A DNA stretch of 38,326 nt from Nitrospirales bacterium (lineage in GTDB: Bacteria > Nitrospirota > Nitrospiria > Nitrospirales > UBA8639). Where the stretch lies: NCBI GenBank assembly GCA_021604365.1, contig BQIZ01000012.1, forward strand, positions 1 through 38,326, in the 5' to 3' direction. Positions 29,744 through 37,659 of the stretch are shown here, one piece after another. Made by a program: the position numbers and the translations under genes. The number at the start of each line of letters is the position of its first letter. The stretch's first letter is position 1. Below the pieces are notes generated by a model, which searched no databases, was not told where the DNA came from, and worked only from the letters and a program-made list of their open reading frames with translations.

Positions 29744-31147
29744 ATGAGTGATTATCAATCCCAATTACGCACCTACATTCAAGATCAGCGCCCCAACTTT
29801 GAAGACCTTTTAGGTCAGATGGTAGAAGTGCCATCAGTAAGTTCAGACCCTGAGCATGCCCACGATATGCACCGAATGGCCCAATTAGCCGTTCAGTATC
29901 TGGAACAATTTGGAGCCAAGGCCGCTATCGTGAACACCAAGGGTTACCCAAGCGTGGCTGGAGAATGGGTGGCCGGGCGACAATATCCCAGTCTGACCAT
30001 TTACAATCATCTCGATGTCCAACCGGCTCAAGAACCCGAATGGCGTCAGCCTCCCTTTGCCTTTAAAAAGGATGGTGATCGGTACTGTGGCCGTGGGGCC
30101 ACGGATGATAAAGGCCCTGCATTGACCGCCCTCTTTGCTGCCAAATTTGCAAGAGAAGCCGGCATTCCCCTAAACATTCGGGTCCTCTGGGAATTGGAGG
30201 AAGAAATTGCCAGCCCGAATTTCCCCGAGGTCCTTCAAAACCGTAAAGCTGTCCCACCGTCTGATTCGGTTCTGGTGTCTGACACGATTTGGGTGGCGAA
30301 GGATCGCCCGGCCCTCTCCTGTGGGCTTCGCGGTTTGTTGGTCGCCAAGTTGGTGCTTCGCACAGGGGAAACCGATATTCATTCCGGTCTCACGGGCGGC
30401 GGGGCGCGCAATCCCTTGGCCGAATTATGCGACGCCGCCTATTCCTGCTTGGAAGCGAAAACCGGACGCGTGAAAATCACCGGATTCTACGATGATGTCG
30501 TCCCGCCAACCCGCACCGAAATGAAAAATTTTCTGGCCTCAGGATTCCAGGTTCGCCTCTTTAAAGAGGCCTATCAACTGCGATCGCTTCGAACCTCTGA
30601 CCCTCAGGATTTGCTCAAACGGATCTGGGCCTCCCCCACCTTTGAAGTGCATGGATTAACGGGTGGGCACATGGGCCCAGGCGTCAAAACCATTGTGCCG
30701 GCCTGGGGGGAACTCAAAGTGAGTATGCGATTAGTTCCAAATCAACATCCCTCAAAAATTTTCCGACTCCTGAAAAAACACCTTCGTGCCCGCAATCCTG
30801 ATATCGAGGTGATAAATGATGGAGAACTGGAACCCTATCGTGGAATTTCCGATGGCCCCTATGCGGAGGCACTGCAAGAGGCAGTAGCCCAGGGCTTTGG
30901 ACGCCGACCGGTGTTTGTGCGGGAAGGTGGATCTATCGGGGCCATTGCGGTATTACAACGGGCCTGGAAGGCCCCGATTCTGTTTATGGGTCTCAGCCTG
31001 CCTGAACATGGGTACCATGCCCCCAATGAATATTTCGATTGGGGACAAGCCTCAGGGGGGATACAAGCCTTCGTCCATTACTTCGATCACTTAAGTCGGA
31101 TGCGACCGGGAAAATCCAATACCCGCCTCAAGCCGGCAACAGGCTAA
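29744..31147 (+). CDS. M20-family metallopeptidase (dipeptidase-like)
   Basis: A 467-residue cytosolic zinc peptidase. Metal ligands are visible in YNHLDVQPA, GRGATDDKG, ELEEEI and SDTIWV, with late His in LPEHGYHAPNEYFDW. The dimerisation domain lies between, with HSGLTGGGARNPL. The pattern is that of the carnosinase/PepV-like dipeptidase group (M20/M25/M40). The exact substrate is not predictable. The stop codon overlaps that of the convergent cytochrome c gene (CTAA). An AAAGGA lies 12 bases upstream of the ATG. Confidence 0.9.
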   Translation: MSDYQSQLRTYIQDQRPNFEDLLGQMVEVPSVSSDPEHAHDMHRMAQLAVQYLEQFGAKAAIVNTKGYPSVAGEWVAGRQYPSLTIYNHLDVQPAQEPEWRQPPFAFKKDGDRYCGRGATDDKGPALTALFAAKFAREAGIPLNIRVLWELEEEIASPNFPEVLQNRKAVPPSDSVLVSDTIWVAKDRPALSCGLRGLLVAKLVLRTGETDIHSGLTGGGARNPLAELCDAAYSCLEAKTGRVKITGFYDDVVPPTRTEMKNFLASGFQVRLFKEAYQLRSLRTSDPQDLLKRIWASPTFEVHGLTGGHMGPGVKTIVPAWGELKVSMRLVPNQHPSKIFRLLKKHLRARNPDIEVINDGELEPYRGISDGPYAEALQEAVAQGFGRRPVFVREGGSIGAIAVLQRAWKAPILFMGLSLPEHGYHAPNEYFDWGQASGGIQAFVHYFDHLSRMRPGKSNTRLKPATG

Positions 31148-31553
31148 GATCCAGAAGAAGGAAGCTGAGGTGATGGTGGGTCTTGAAAATGCACAAGGGT
31201 TCGAATATAGGCAAGGATATGACGCCGTTCATCATCCGACAATTGATGACTCCAGCCGCTCATGGCCGTCCTGGGTATTCCCTTAGCAAGAATCTCGAGG
31301 ATTTCTTCATCAGTTTTGATTGAGGTTGCTGCCGAGACTAAATTACCTGGGCGAGGGGCCAACATGGCCGCTCGTGGACCATCCCCCCGTCCTTCCGCCC
31401 CATGACATTCCAGGCAATGAATAGATAGAGGTCTCGCCCCTCCTCCCATCGGGGTTGCACACCAACAATCCTTGACTCGTGGGAAGCGGCTAAGCCTGAA
31501 ATGACCAGGCCGTTCATAAGGATCAGGACACCCATCCAAACCATGCGACTCAT
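31144..31553 (-). pseudogene. Mono-heme c-type cytochrome gene with frameshift
   Basis: From the ATG at 31553 one frame gives a signal peptide (MVWMGVLILMNGLVISGLAA), then ESRIVGVQPRWEEGRDLYL. After a one-base loss near 31433 another frame continues IHCLECHGAEGRGDGP, with the CxxCH heme site, LAPRPGNL, and TAMSGW, with the distal methionine. It ends in ERRHILAYIRTL. Joined, they make a normal exported class I cytochrome c of about 135 residues. As read, heme attachment and export are separated, so the product should not be functional unless the indel is a sequence error. Confidence 0.8.
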
Positions 31554-31655
31554 GCTTCAAATTGTACTGCATGAATGGCGTAAGTTCAAAAATTACTCTG
31601 ATTAAAAACTATACGACAGTGTCCAGCAGAGATCTTGAGCTATTGCAAAAACTCT

Positions 31656-33498: not shown

Positions 33499-34026
33499 TT
33501 ACACATGGAGATGTTTCATCGCTGCCGCACAAAGAATGATAAACACCCCCATCCACAAGGCTACACGCTGAAATGGAACCGGCTCTATGGCCATCTCTTC
33601 TAATTCTTCGCTTGTCTCACCACCTGTGGGTTCATTTTTAAAGATAATGGTGTATAGAAAAATGGTCAGAATTCCCAGCACCAAGAACAATTTAATAAAA
33701 AAAACGGTTAGGTATTTGGCATGATGGGAGACACCCTCCCCCGACTGCATGACCATCCCCTCACTTACATAATGGAGATTAAATCCTCCAGTAAAAAGGA
33801 TAACTACCAAGAGAATCCCGACCACCCGTTTATATTGTTGATAAAAGGTTTCAGATATTGGTCGGATAAATTGTTTTGGAACAGTGTTTTTGAGACAGGG
33901 CGTTACGGCCATGACAAGAAACGCCAGCCCACCAATCCACACCACGGCAGACAGCAGGTGCAACCAATGCACCAGGATGGGAATAATCTGATTAAGATCG
34001 GTGAGAACTCCGAGGAGGGATTCCAT
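33499..34026 (-). CDS. CopD-like four-helix membrane protein
   Basis: A 175-residue inner-membrane protein with four helices at about 15-40, 68-85, 108-130 and 150-170. Helix one contains LVHWLHLLSAVVWIGGLAF, resembling the CopD/DUF2269-type family with histidines that may bind copper or heme. Further histidines are at LHYVSEG, GVSHHAKY and the terminal MKHLHV. Its start codon overlaps the stop of the radical SAM gene by one base (TAATG), so it is the third gene of that operon. A role in electron transfer or metal/heme handling is inference. Confidence 0.75.
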   Translation of the reverse strand: MESLLGVLTDLNQIIPILVHWLHLLSAVVWIGGLAFLVMAVTPCLKNTVPKQFIRPISETFYQQYKRVVGILLVVILFTGGFNLHYVSEGMVMQSGEGVSHHAKYLTVFFIKLFLVLGILTIFLYTIIFKNEPTGGETSEELEEMAIEPVPFQRVALWMGVFIILCAAAMKHLHV

Positions 34027-35408
34027 TAGAACTTAAACACAGGCTTTTCATTTCCGAATCGACGCTTCCGAAGTTCTTCCATTAATTCAATGGTCACGAC
34101 TGGAAGACCTTGTTCAACAGCATGACGCTCGACACCTTTTTTTACCATAGCTCGAAGAAAATATGGGATCCGACTGAGCCGTTCTTCCGCGTCGGCTTCC
34201 CATTCCACGGACGAGGATTCCGGCATATTGAAGGCCACTTTAATTTTTTCTCCCCCTCTGGGAGTGTACAGACACCATTCATCCTCATCCATCGCATCCC
34301 CGTGGTCCACATAAGGACGAGCGCGGCACCCGCCGCAAATTTCACTGTATTCGCAATCTCCGCATTTGCCCTTGAGGTGAGGATAGCGAAAGGAGTTGAA
34401 TACTTCTGAGTTTTCCCATAAATCGACAAAACTAGTGTCGCGAATGTTTCCTGCAGACAGGGGCATATACGGGCAAGGCGTGAGATCGCCATTTGGCGTC
34501 ACTCGCGCATAGTTAGTGCCTGCCAGACATCCCCCTCCCATATATCCTGTCGCCTTGGTAATGGGAGAATTTGGATCTTTTTCATAGGCTAAGCGTTTGA
34601 AATGCGGCGCACAACGCGCCCGAACCAACATGTCCTGGTATTTATCTTGGCTCTCCACCATATAAGTCAAAACCTCTTCATATTGCGAAGGCGTGATGTC
34701 AGTGAGTTCTTCACCCCGTCCAGTGCACACCATGAAAAAGACATTTAAGACTTTGGCACCTAAATCGTGTGACCAATCGATGACCGCTGGTAATTCCTTG
34801 TAGTTCATGGGCTGTGCGCTGAAATGTACTTGAAATTGAAGACCATTTCGTTTGCAGGCCTCAATGCCAGCCATAGCGCCTTCCCATGCACCAGGTAAAC
34901 CTCTAAACGCGTTGTGGGTTGCTGAATCCAAGGAATCAATACTAATTCCTACGCCCATCACACCAATGTCTACCATGGCTTTCGCCATCTTATCGTCAAT
35001 CAGCATACCATTGGTGCCAAATACGACCATAAATCGCTTCTCGACTGCATGACGCGCGATTTCAAGAATATCAGGACGAACCAACGGCTCTCCTCCGGTA
35101 ATAACAAGAAGACTACCGGCATTGACTTGGGCAATCTGATCAATAAGCTGAAAACATTCTTCTGTCGTCAATTCATCGTGCCCACCGCCCATTTTCGTTG
35201 TGGCATCCAGATAACAATGGTCGCATTTGAGATTGCAACGCTTGGTTAAATTGAGGGCCACCAGGTAGGGCTTAAAATCATCCACGGTTCGACCATCCCC
35301 AGGCGCTCCGGAATCTGGACGAAACGTTTCAAACTTAGAAATTGCACTGGACCCTAACGAGTTCAGCGTATTAAGGAATGAATTGATAACAGGCAGAGAC
35401 TTACCCAT
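34026..35408 (-). CDS. Radical SAM/SPASM protein with C-terminal PCP_red domain
   Basis: A 460-residue radical SAM enzyme. The core cluster is at Cys58, Cys62 and Cys65 (CNLKCDHC), with TGGEPLVRPD for SAM binding. A SPASM-like C-terminal part has Cys266, 294, 312, 349, 352, 358, 361 and 379, enough for one or two auxiliary clusters. Residues 402-450 (EWEADAEERLSRIPYFLRAM and on) form a PCP_red domain, known from protochlorophyllide/chlorophyllide reductase subunits. The general layout resembles heme-d1/alternative-heme enzymes (NirJ, AhbC/D) without the PCP_red tail. The start overlaps the upstream stop by eight bases. The substrate is unknown; a tetrapyrrole or a peptide are both possible. 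Confidence 0.85.
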   Translation of the reverse strand: MGKSLPVINSFLNTLNSLGSSAISKFETFRPDSGAPGDGRTVDDFKPYLVALNLTKRCNLKCDHCYLDATTKMGGGHDELTTEECFQLIDQIAQVNAGSLLVITGGEPLVRPDILEIARHAVEKRFMVVFGTNGMLIDDKMAKAMVDIGVMGVGISIDSLDSATHNAFRGLPGAWEGAMAGIEACKRNGLQFQVHFSAQPMNYKELPAVIDWSHDLGAKVLNVFFMVCTGRGEELTDITPSQYEEVLTYMVESQDKYQDMLVRARCAPHFKRLAYEKDPNSPITKATGYMGGGCLAGTNYARVTPNGDLTPCPYMPLSAGNIRDTSFVDLWENSEVFNSFRYPHLKGKCGDCEYSEICGGCRARPYVDHGDAMDEDEWCLYTPRGGEKIKVAFNMPESSSVEWEADAEERLSRIPYFLRAMVKKGVERHAVEQGLPVVTIELMEELRKRRFGNEKPVFKF

Positions 35409-37500
35409 TATGGCCGGCTCCAGATTGAGCTTCCGAGGGAGCCCCCGCGCCAGTCAACTTGGCCACAATGTCCTTGACATTGCCAGTTTTCATGGCTTCT
35501 TCCATAGTAGTTTTGGCTTGCTCAATTCCCTGGTTCGCCACATCTAGAGTTATGGTTGTGGTTCCAATTTTTTCAGCATGTTTGATAATTAACGCTTTGG
35601 TGCAATCACGCATAAATCCGGCAGGAGCTCTTTCCAATCGTTGTAGGGCATCGGGCTCCCACACATACGGGTCGGCTCCATTGGTGTTGCCAGTATTTTC
35701 AGATTTGGATTCAGAGACCATAGTTGCCGTCTCCCCAGCCGTTTTATTGGCAAAAATTGGTGTATAGTCCTCGCTTGCCGCTTCTTGAATCATTGCTCCT
35801 GAATATTCCAACGTAATCGTGGTCATTCCAAGTTTTCTTGCAGTTTTTTCGATTTTCGCTTTTGCCCGTCGGCGTTGAAAACCAGCGGGAACGGCTCGAA
35901 TGGCTTCACGAGCATCTTTCGTCCACTGCATAGGTATATCATCATATGATACTTGGGTTTCCAAGCCACCTTCCGCCTTGGCAGCCGCATCAAAAATAGA
36001 TTTATCGACTTGCTTGAATTGTGCTCCATCAAGACCACAGACAGGGCACAGCACCGGTTGATCGCCTTTTCCAATATATCCACATCCACCACAAACATAA
36101 TAGTCTCTGGACATTCGCGCTAGATACGACTTGTTCCCTGCGCTCATTGGCGCCGAATCCTCCGATGGCTTTTCTTCCACCACATGAGACATCATGCCGC
36201 TCAAGGTGGAACCCATCAAGTCCTGCGCAACCTCATCCCCTGCCTGCATGGCATTCCGATCGACTCCAGCAGCATCGAGAGTACCGCCTAACGTTTTCAT
36301 GGCGTCCATGGCCCCTTTGGGTAGAATATCACCAACCGCATCATCGATGACAGAATTACTGATGATGGTATGACCCTTTTCGATAGCATATCGATGTATC
36401 GCAGTCTTTGCCACTCCCCGTGCAAAGACAGGTATCTTTTCCATCCGCCGTAAGGCTTCTTCCGTCCAGGCGATCGTGTATTCGGCCTGCGTGTCAATCG
36501 GAGGAACAAACTTCTTGTTAGATATTAATACATTGCAAGGAGCTGAACGCAAAAGATTCTCGGCATTGCTGCCAATATCCATATCATCGTCGCTATGCAC
36601 CCCAATCCGTCCTACAATTAGCAGCCATGGCTGCTCTTTCCGAACGTATTGAATGATTTTCTCAAACGCTTTGCCGTCAAGAAGAGTTGTCTTAATATCT
36701 GCGCCCTCATCCTGGGCGACATCGCGAGAGACATCAAGATGAGACTGGTAAATTTTTGCTAACCCGCTGTCAATGACTTCCTCATGAAGCTTTTCCTGCT
36801 CCTTAAATCGAAACACCTTTCCAGCCTCTTCATTCAGGACACCGGAAATACTGTGAAACGCGGCGTAATGAAAATAGGGGTCGAATGCCGAAATCGCTTC
36901 TACAGGCTTATTGAGCGCCTTTCCCAGTGCTAACGCGGTTTTCAATCCGCCAAAGGAGTAATGGCTCCCATCTACAGCTACCACAATTTTCCCACCATTC
37001 ATGGGTTTGGTATCTTTCACTACGAACATATCCGAATTACGAATCCGACGGATCACACGTTCCGTGTTACTGCCGATCACAGAGTCCTTCACTGCCCCAA
37101 CCCCCAAGGACCCCATAATGGTCAAGTCATACCCATTTTTTGAAATATCTTCTGCAATTGCCTTCCAATTTCGTCCCTCGAGTGAGCGCCGCTCCAGAGG
37201 AATATTCGCTTCCGCGCATTTCTGATCGACAAAATCCAAATATGAATCTGTAATTATTTGCAAACCTCTGGTGATAAGGGAATCATGTATTTGGCGTTGG
37301 CGATCTAACTCCTTTTCGTCGTGATATTCCTCAGGAAGACCTGCCTCCATTTGCTTAAACCGCTTATCATGCATCTTCGCCGCATACACATGACTACCCA
37401 CAATTTTCGATCCGAAAATTTTCGCGAACTGCACCCCCAGTTCTACAGCCATATTCGAATGGTCTGAATTATCAACCGGGACATATATTGTTTTGTACAT
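35401..37500 (-). CDS. Tandem universal-stress / PCP_red / rubredoxin-like fusion protein
   Basis: A 699-residue soluble multidomain protein. USP domain 1 covers 1-163 and USP domain 2 about 170-328. Both keep the ATP-binding pattern G-2x-G-9x-GS (Gly130-Ser144 and Gly297-Ser311). PCP_red domain 1 is at 344-394. A rubredoxin-like ribbon has Cys470, 473, 485 and 488 (CGGC and CPVC). PCP_red domain 2 is at 525-573 and domain 3 at 613-661. The linkers are acidic and low-complexity. The ATG at 37500 sits eight bases after TAAGGAGG, the best ribosome-binding site in the window; a TTG one codon earlier is less likely. USP domains bind nucleotide under stress, and the ribbon should bind iron or zinc. 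It is first gene of the operon, overlapping the radical SAM gene. Confidence 0.88.
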   Translation of the reverse strand: MYKTIYVPVDNSDHSNMAVELGVQFAKIFGSKIVGSHVYAAKMHDKRFKQMEAGLPEEYHDEKELDRQRQIHDSLITRGLQIITDSYLDFVDQKCAEANIPLERRSLEGRNWKAIAEDISKNGYDLTIMGSLGVGAVKDSVIGSNTERVIRRIRNSDMFVVKDTKPMNGGKIVVAVDGSHYSFGGLKTALALGKALNKPVEAISAFDPYFHYAAFHSISGVLNEEAGKVFRFKEQEKLHEEVIDSGLAKIYQSHLDVSRDVAQDEGADIKTTLLDGKAFEKIIQYVRKEQPWLLIVGRIGVHSDDDMDIGSNAENLLRSAPCNVLISNKKFVPPIDTQAEYTIAWTEEALRRMEKIPVFARGVAKTAIHRYAIEKGHTIISNSVIDDAVGDILPKGAMDAMKTLGGTLDAAGVDRNAMQAGDEVAQDLMGSTLSGMMSHVVEEKPSEDSAPMSAGNKSYLARMSRDYYVCGGCGYIGKGDQPVLCPVCGLDGAQFKQVDKSIFDAAAKAEGGLETQVSYDDIPMQWTKDAREAIRAVPAGFQRRRAKAKIEKTARKLGMTTITLEYSGAMIQEAASEDYTPIFANKTAGETATMVSESKSENTGNTNGADPYVWEPDALQRLERAPAGFMRDCTKALIIKHAEKIGTTTITLDVANQGIEQAKTTMEEAMKTGNVKDIVAKLTGAGAPSEAQSGAGHNG

Positions 37501-37659
37501 CAAAAAGCCTCCTTAGAGATTTCCGCCTTAGGAAAAGCGGTATCACACCCTCGTCTCAATCGCCGGGAAATGCTTATAAACAGATGTTTTTTCACACGAA
37601 ATAAGAGCGGATCTTACCACTGAGAATTCTAGGTACGCAACCCAATGAACTTTTCCACC

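Follow-up and report, generated by a model that had tools for sequence, protein, structure and literature searches.

A three-gene unit in the window, a 38,326-nucleotide stretch from a Nitrospirales bacterium (assembly GCA_021604365.1, contig BQIZ01000012.1, positions 1 to 38,326), accompanies the bd-like (OR-N-type) oxidase in several phyla, and this oxidase is the best genomic correlate of its second gene among those tested. Gene 1 encodes a universal stress protein (USP) fusion with PCP_red domains and a rubredoxin-like ribbon (USP-PCP), gene 2 a radical SAM/SPASM enzyme ending in a PCP_red domain (rSAM-PCP) and gene 3 a membrane protein. The co-occurrence and adjacency of these genes with the OR-N oxidase and nitrite oxidoreductase (NXR) point to biogenesis of that respiratory chain, and we give about even confidence to reading the unit as a portion of a maturation module dedicated to the oxidase and the NXR chain it serves. 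The module would probably consist of a haem-modifying enzyme and carrier proteins for that chain. The original prediction had described a stress-responsive redox or tetrapyrrole-modifying system; a conserved system of the redox/tetrapyrrole type stands, as the gene order is kept and the nearest families of the radical SAM enzyme act on iron-tetrapyrroles, but the stress response, which rests on the name of the USP domain, gains no support, and the link to the OR-N oxidase and NXR had been missed. Genomes, contigs, loci and families are given below under our own labels (G, C, L and f).

Co-occurrence and adjacency with the oxidase

The oxidase was searched for with the bd-like protein of L041 (PF01654, 72 bits), and its OR-N label follows from the PF01654 match and the published assignment rather than from a tree placement of our own. 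According to excerpts of PMC12342949 and PMC10839748, the CydA-like proteins of Nitrospirales and Nitrospinota are OR-N CydAA', a putative cytochrome c oxidase that awaits experimental confirmation. Enzymes of this type are presumed to be the terminal oxidases of Nitrospira and Nitrospina, and anammox-type Planctomycetota have related ones. In a sample of 198 Nitrospirota genomes, gene 2 was counted at E below 1e-90, a threshold chosen after viewing the list (the weakest carrier, at 4.4e-92, is a fragment without the PCP_red end in G077; the next row, at 4.8e-84, is PCP-less), and the oxidase at E up to 1e-25. Gene 2 was found in 77 genomes, the oxidase in 84 and both in 75, so that the oxidase is present in 75 of 77 carriers versus 9 of 121 other genomes ([[75,2],[9,112]], Fisher 1.4e-41). 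Without families f1 and f3 the counts are 21 of 23 versus 7 of 119 ([[21,2],[7,112]], Fisher 4e-17); both Fisher values treat genomes as independent, which genomes are not.

We regard a sample of 199 Planctomycetota genomes as the fairest control, because both traits are patchy within this one phylum. The oxidase occurs in 14 of them and rSAM-PCP in the same 14 (split in two within a single frame in G362; PCP_red was read in the most distant five, L216, L217, L220, L221 and L224), and 32 further genomes with shorter relatives only have no oxidase match. In a scan of named genomes with gene 2, 36 of the 80 best loci reach into PCP_red and 44 are PCP-less. These 80 are the best of at least 531 relatives (at least 591 stretches), so the phyla represented are a lower bound: Nitrospira, other Nitrospirota, Nitrospina/Nitrospinota, Ca. 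Brocadia, Ca. Anammoxibacter, another Planctomycetota, Poribacteria, one Chloroflexi, one Bacteroidota, one Deltaproteobacteria (Myxococcota in the tree) and two Betaproteobacteria-type metagenome-assembled genomes. Most carriers are metagenome-assembled, and isolated occurrences may stem from faulty binning. The oxidase was found in 23 of 24 carrier genomes (the miss is that of L133) versus 0 of 22 with PCP-less relatives, the checks covering 24 of the 36 PCP_red-reaching loci (the 12 left out, L121 among them, belong to Nitrospira and other Nitrospirota) and 22 of the 44 PCP-less ones. Three of the 24 (L113, L119 and L136) are themselves Nitrospirota, and the genome of L113, G258, appears to be G102 in the Nitrospirota sample, with which it shares the place and score of the oxidase.

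The oxidase is a genetic partner of the unit and no relative of it, and in several phyla, not all, PCP_red genes lie near its operon. At most oxidase loci read, the OR-N genes head a row of genes for a cytochrome c, a membrane cytochrome c and a cytochrome c-EB_dh protein (PF09459). The fullest row is in Pseudomonadota (L207 and L156, taken as one contig from the length of 16,876 bases and the identical NxrA), which carries USP-PCP, oxidase, cytochromes, nxrA-, nxrB- and nxrC-like genes (named from Pfam domains and reading by eye) and rSAM-PCP. PCP_red genes share the oxidase stretch in Planctomycetota (L209, L216, L217, L218, L222 and L123, the last from Anammoxibacter), Nitrospirota (L214, L113, L136 and L041) and Bacteroidota (L139), and in L223, from Planctomycetota, USP-PCP stands beside NXR-like genes. 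Locus L041 (G000:C3:31000-43000), from the window's own genome, has the order DUF420 (CtaM-like), a protein with two PCP_red domains, a 357-residue protein and the bd-like oxidase; on contig C13 of this genome, about 0.5 kb separates the end of one oxidase copy from the nxrA gene that follows. In Poribacteria G243 and G244, rSAM-PCP and the oxidase share a contig at a distance of about 22-23 kb, and USP-PCP is closer to the oxidase. Among 18 loci fetched for the oxidase alone (L202-L215, L218, L219, L225 and L226), four hold a PCP_red open reading frame (ORF) and two more an edge-cut USP-PCP confirmed by extension; none was found in the 44 loci (608 kb) around PCP-less relatives. ORFs were picked by length, and genes under a longer opposite-strand frame were missed in places (L141, L110).

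Several of these rows would also suit a module whose client is NXR, with the haem b of NxrC as one example, and whose tie to the OR-N oxidase comes only from their shared chain: rSAM-PCP stands directly behind the nxrABC-like genes in L156, USP-PCP lies between the OR-N operon and NXR-like genes in L223/L211, 4-5 kb separate rSAM-PCP and an NxrA-like gene in G156, G215 and G217, and EB_dh proteins occur in the OR-N operons. We give this little probability, since NxrA was found in 57 of the 198 Nitrospirota genomes and in only 52 of the 77 gene 2 carriers (though drafts may have lost nxrA) versus 75 for the oxidase, and 14 carriers outside f1 and f3 have the oxidase and no NxrA match. NXR was likewise rejected as the sole main correlate on these counts.

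Gene 2 and its iron-tetrapyrrole relatives

Judged by sequence, gene 2 is a new clade of a known enzyme kind, bracketed by iron-tetrapyrrole enzymes. Pfam finds Radical_SAM (87 bits), SPASM (43 bits) and PCP_red (56 bits) domains, and the best curated families are NirJ2 (TIGR04055, 325.5 bits), a putative haem d1-type family, and the haem b synthase AhbD (TIGR04545, 319 bits), both with cut-offs of 500, followed by TIGR04053 (266 bits), NirJ (180) and AhbC (179). Six rSAM-PCP homologues from six phyla score 266-343 bits for AhbD, and none reaches a family cut-off. Eleven cysteines are invariant in 22 sequences, eight of them beyond C58/C62/C65 and spanning residues 266 to 379; the spacing in gene 2, CX3CX2C and then CX27CX17CX36CX2CX5CX2CX17C, agrees with the full SPASM motif, CX20-33CX17CX36-37CX2CX5CX2CX17-35C, that the excerpted PMC10452713 reports for AhbD from methanogens and sulfate reducers.

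In a tree of core columns without PCP_red, 35 rSAM-PCP sequences fall on one side of a branch (99/92) that was recovered in 200 of 200 bootstrap trees checked, several of the 35 having long branches, and the AhbD and NirJ2 groups (100/100 each) stand apart from this clade. The quick tree used 76 of 160 radical SAM rows, and the final one dropped 13 more distant rows. Scores back the AhbD label of L168, L145, L056, L059, L064 and L065 and the NirJ2 label of L143 and L158; the other five AhbD sequences and three of NirJ2 were labelled by position. Gene 2 was therefore placed in neither family, each score being below 500 bits and each group separate; its C-terminal PCP_red also sets it apart from both. 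A second PCP_red fusion, in which the radical SAM enzyme is AhbD-like, stands apart from the main clade (L092:990-2378).

From excerpts of the literature, AhbD abstracts hydrogen at the propionate beta-position (PMC11306076) and NirJ removes propionates from didecarboxysiroheme, an iron-tetrapyrrole (PMC12505453). Because AhbD and NirJ are the neighbours of gene 2, its substrate too may by analogy be an iron-tetrapyrrole. An alternative is a SPASM enzyme that modifies a peptide or protein and matures an OR-N or NXR subunit by cross-linking or cofactor attachment, to which the genomic link would apply equally. We modelled gene 2 (pLDDT 78, pTM 0.80, the PCP_red region forming three helices at residues 405-451), and the closest solved folds are PqqE, SkfB and SuiB, with anSME close behind. 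This agrees with a peptide modifier, but the result is generic for radical SAM enzymes and does not discriminate, as no haem-pathway enzyme of the AhbD/NirJ group is among the 50 fold matches listed. Peptide-type families score far lower, at 154 bits or less (GeoRSP 154 and WgkB 147, versus 325 for NirJ2), and the tree places gene 2 beside AhbD and NirJ2; we consider the peptide alternative unlikely.

Gene 2 could also be a general haem b synthase that, like AhbD, converts iron-coproporphyrin III to haem b, the OR-N link then reflecting a shared aerobic, haem-rich lifestyle. In addition to the AhbD score and the full cysteine motif, this would suit the absence of ferrochelatase (PF00762) from all 35 genomes of the window's family f1 (G000-G034), some of them nearly complete. 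Against it stand the unmet AhbD cut-off and the separate clade, the absence of the siroheme decarboxylase AhbA/B (PF17805) from 57 of 57 genomes of the order (4 of 14 named genomes gave a match in the control) and the order's other families, where ferrochelatase is present in 18 of 22 genomes tested and gene 2 is carried too. This makes a haem b synthase quite unlikely in our view, and for the last reason a stand-in for the missing ferrochelatase is likewise not favoured. In another Nitrospirota genome (L098:5442-7540), a PCP-less NirJ2/AhbD-like radical SAM gene lies directly beside a HemE-like gene, as read by eye.

Layout, conservation and partner proteins

All three ORFs are present on the minus strand, where genes 1 and 2 overlap by 8 bases (35401-35408) and genes 2 and 3 by 1 base (34026), as first described. 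We searched 59 genomes of the order with gene 2 and found a close copy in most, with 68-98% identity in families f1-f3 and 48-49% in f4 (two full copies); several drafts have fragments or no close match (e.g. G010, G011, G039, G040 and G045). Among the 30 best loci, the window's own included, gene 3 follows gene 2 in 30 of 30 and gene 1 precedes it in 27 of 30, the other three stopping at or near a contig end, so the unit is not a chance arrangement. Of 39 rows in which the three genes share a strand (some genes were fetched twice among these rows), 11 repeat the -8/-1 spacing; the first overlap by itself is -8 in 19 and the second -1 in 17. Beyond the order the triple is kept in f6 (L085), and genes 1 and 2 in f11 (L093), f13 (L084) and f17 (L091), so with families f1-f3 conservation extends beyond close strains. 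No gene 1 was found beside gene 2 in f4 (L044, L045). In both of these loci (L045:8320-14989), rSAM-PCP is divergent from genes for a 285-residue protein and a frame of at least 1365 residues that looks multicopper oxidase-like by eye.

Table 1. Coordinates of the three-gene unit in the window and of the extended row in L085
Feature	Position	Strand	Evidence
Gene 1: USP-USP-PCP_red-rubredoxin-like-PCP_red-PCP_red protein, 699 aa from ATG 37500	35401..37500	-	ORF, Pfam
Shine-Dalgarno-like AAGGAGG before gene 1	37508..37514	-	sequence reading
Gene 1, first Usp stretch	upstream of 36523..36990	-	Pfam
Gene 1, second Usp domain, residues 172-327 of 700-aa frame	36523..36990	-	Pfam
PCP_red copy 1 (gene 1), 53.2 bits	36337..36468	-	single-domain profile score
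Rubredoxin-like ribbon CxxC..CxxC (gene 1), RUBY_RBDX 22.6 bits, under cut-off	36013..36099	-	Pfam
PCP_red copy 2 (gene 1), 41.6 bits	35806..35925	-	single-domain profile score
PCP_red copy 3 (gene 1), 30.5 bits, E 1.8e-6, under 32.5 cut-off	35533..35661	-	single-domain score
Gene 2: radical SAM/SPASM-PCP_red, 460 aa, NirJ2/AhbD-related, own clade	34026..35408	-	ORF, Pfam, tree
Gene 2, Radical_SAM domain, residues 53-191; C58, C62, C65	34836..35252	-	Pfam, alignment
Gene 2, SPASM domain, residues 294-353	34350..34529	-	Pfam
PCP_red copy 4, C-terminal in gene 2, 60.4 bits	34068..34202	-	single-domain profile score
Gene 3: CopD/DUF4149-like membrane protein, 175 aa, invariant H23 and K112	33499..34026	-	ORF, weak profiles, model
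Row of 4xPCP_red, Haem_oxygenas_2, ribbon-PCP2, Mrp ATPase and DUF420 genes beside the triple	L085:7629-11661		

In gene 1, Pfam finds Usp (PF00582) at 117 bits in two stretches, above the 24-bit cut-off, and PCP_red (PF08369) at 108 bits in three. The four PCP_red segments predicted in genes 1 and 2 all match the profile, three of them singly above the cut-off of 32.5 bits and the remaining copy, at 30.5 bits (E 1.8e-6), below it. The two USP domains are likewise borne out; ATP binding was also claimed for them, and here the evidence is a G-2X-G-9X-G(S/T) pattern, which we take to be the ATP motif, seen in both by eye. For the rubredoxin-like ribbon the paired CxxC motifs are present, but RUBY_RBDX (PF21349) gives 22.6 bits versus a cut-off of 26.5. 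Among gene 1 homologues the ribbon scores 49.2 bits in L093, and the same Usp-Usp-PCP-ribbon-PCP-PCP architecture occurs in Bacteroidota L139 (19.5 bits) and Poribacteria L124 (21.0 bits), below the cut-off in both. The PCP_red of the accompanying enzyme scores 39.0 bits in L141 and 21.1 bits (E 3.3e-4), under the cut-off, in L139.

PCP_red had been called rare; the window's own genome has 12 PCP_red places in 4 loci. Its PCP_red genes are scattered, an Mrp gene adjoining the ribbon-PCP2 gene in L039 and the 4xPCP gene lying at L040, and in L085 the triple itself adjoins genes for two further PCP_red proteins (one with four copies of the domain, the other ribbon-like with two), a Haem_oxygenas_2 protein, an Mrp-type ATPase (PF10609) and a DUF420 membrane protein. 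Three PCP_red domains follow SPASM in the rSAM-PCP proteins of Brocadia and a related Planctomycetota (L112, L118 and L114). The domain is common to genes 1 and 2 and the dark-operative protochlorophyllide reductase subunit BchB/ChlB, but the nitrogenase-like domain of the latter was not found by Pfam in either gene, and PCP_red is here in 3+1 copies. Gene 1 was accordingly rejected as BchB, with TIGR01278 giving 62 bits versus 490.35, from the PCP_red end of the model alone. For the reductase, the excerpted PMC7948495 leaves a docking role of PCP_red undecided.

The USP domains with their ATP motif and the Haem_oxygenas_2 protein near the module in L085 could instead belong to a unit for stress response or regulation, with gene 1 as a sensor of ATP or redox state and the enzyme serving to repair or degrade tetrapyrrole that has been damaged. 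This leaves the co-occurrence with the oxidase unexplained, and we think it very improbable.

Gene 3 gives weak Pfam matches only (DUF4149, E 0.0018). Its model (pLDDT 74) has four long helices, and the fold search returned no solved fold under E 0.001 and only weak STEAP1 matches. Of the membrane histidines first proposed, a single one (H23) is invariant among 14 homologues, as are one Lys (K112), Y105, Y125 and several Gly. As short multi-helix proteins CopD and HemJ (UPF0093) resemble gene 3, and an early His and a later Lys are the HemJ pattern. Both were rejected: the CopD model (NF033808) gives 30.7 bits versus a cut-off of 195, and UPF0093 (PF03653) is not listed for gene 3 at E 1; a weak UPF0093 match of the window's own genome is on another contig than the triple. 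Downstream of the triple in the window (31144-31572), a small cytochrome c gene adjoins an EngA-like GTPase gene, an arrangement kept in L042 and L048.

A candidate maturation module

As a maturation module for the OR-N oxidase and its NXR chain, the unit may work as follows. From its cysteines, gene 2 would be a radical SAM enzyme with two auxiliary Fe-S clusters and, from its relatives, would abstract hydrogen from an iron-tetrapyrrole side chain, so making or altering a haem needed by the OR-N complex or a haem-b partner. The PCP_red domains of genes 1 and 2 and of the ribbon-PCP_red and 4xPCP_red proteins would form a shared module for tetrapyrrole holding or docking, perhaps for the Mrp-type ATPase found beside some PCP_red genes. 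Gene 1 may be an ATP-binding carrier or scaffold, ATP and the ribbon being used in transfer, and gene 3 a membrane four-helix protein for handing over haem or for anchoring.

A number of observations weigh against such a module. Co-occurrence is not mechanism, and lifestyle could couple enzyme and oxidase; most of the 22 PCP-less control genomes are anaerobes, judged by their names. Nine OR-N Nitrospirota have no gene 2 match at E 1e-70 (G040, G085, G118, G181, G201, G216, G223, G225 and G227), but gene 2 is in fact present in G225 (L093), and the match in G181 is of AhbD type with its make-up unread; G201, G216 and G223 are 97-99% complete. Conversely, the Nitrospirota genomes G060 and G066, and also G252, have the enzyme and no oxidase that was found. 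Twelve of the 18 loci fetched for the oxidase alone, Nitrospina loci among them, have no PCP_red gene, and Nitrospina drafts hold the enzyme gene and the OR-N operon on different contigs. SPASM enzymes often act on peptides, and haem binding by gene 3 gets no evidence from the fold search of its model.

A bolder and more doubtful extension, which we hold only tentatively, is that OR-N oxidases contain a chemically new haem made by the rSAM-PCP_red enzyme, that this haem travels from the cytoplasm to the membrane complex on PCP_red proteins, and that PCP_red is a general tetrapyrrole-handling module and not a photosynthesis domain.

No paper on such a system was found among the open-licence papers searched, within which the tie of a radical SAM enzyme clade to a terminal oxidase is new. 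The excerpted text of PMC12342949, on Nitrospirales genomes, does not contain 'heme', 'radical SAM' or 'universal stress', and that of PMC10839748 describes no maturation factor for OR-N CydAA'. The OR-N oxidases are presumed to carry out the final, oxygen-reducing step of respiration in major nitrite oxidisers; on the published account, as excerpted, their composition and function are without experimental confirmation. A gene set that accompanies them in several phyla names candidate assembly factors, directs attention to haem and would guide heterologous expression, and it moves PCP_red beyond its photosynthesis niche.

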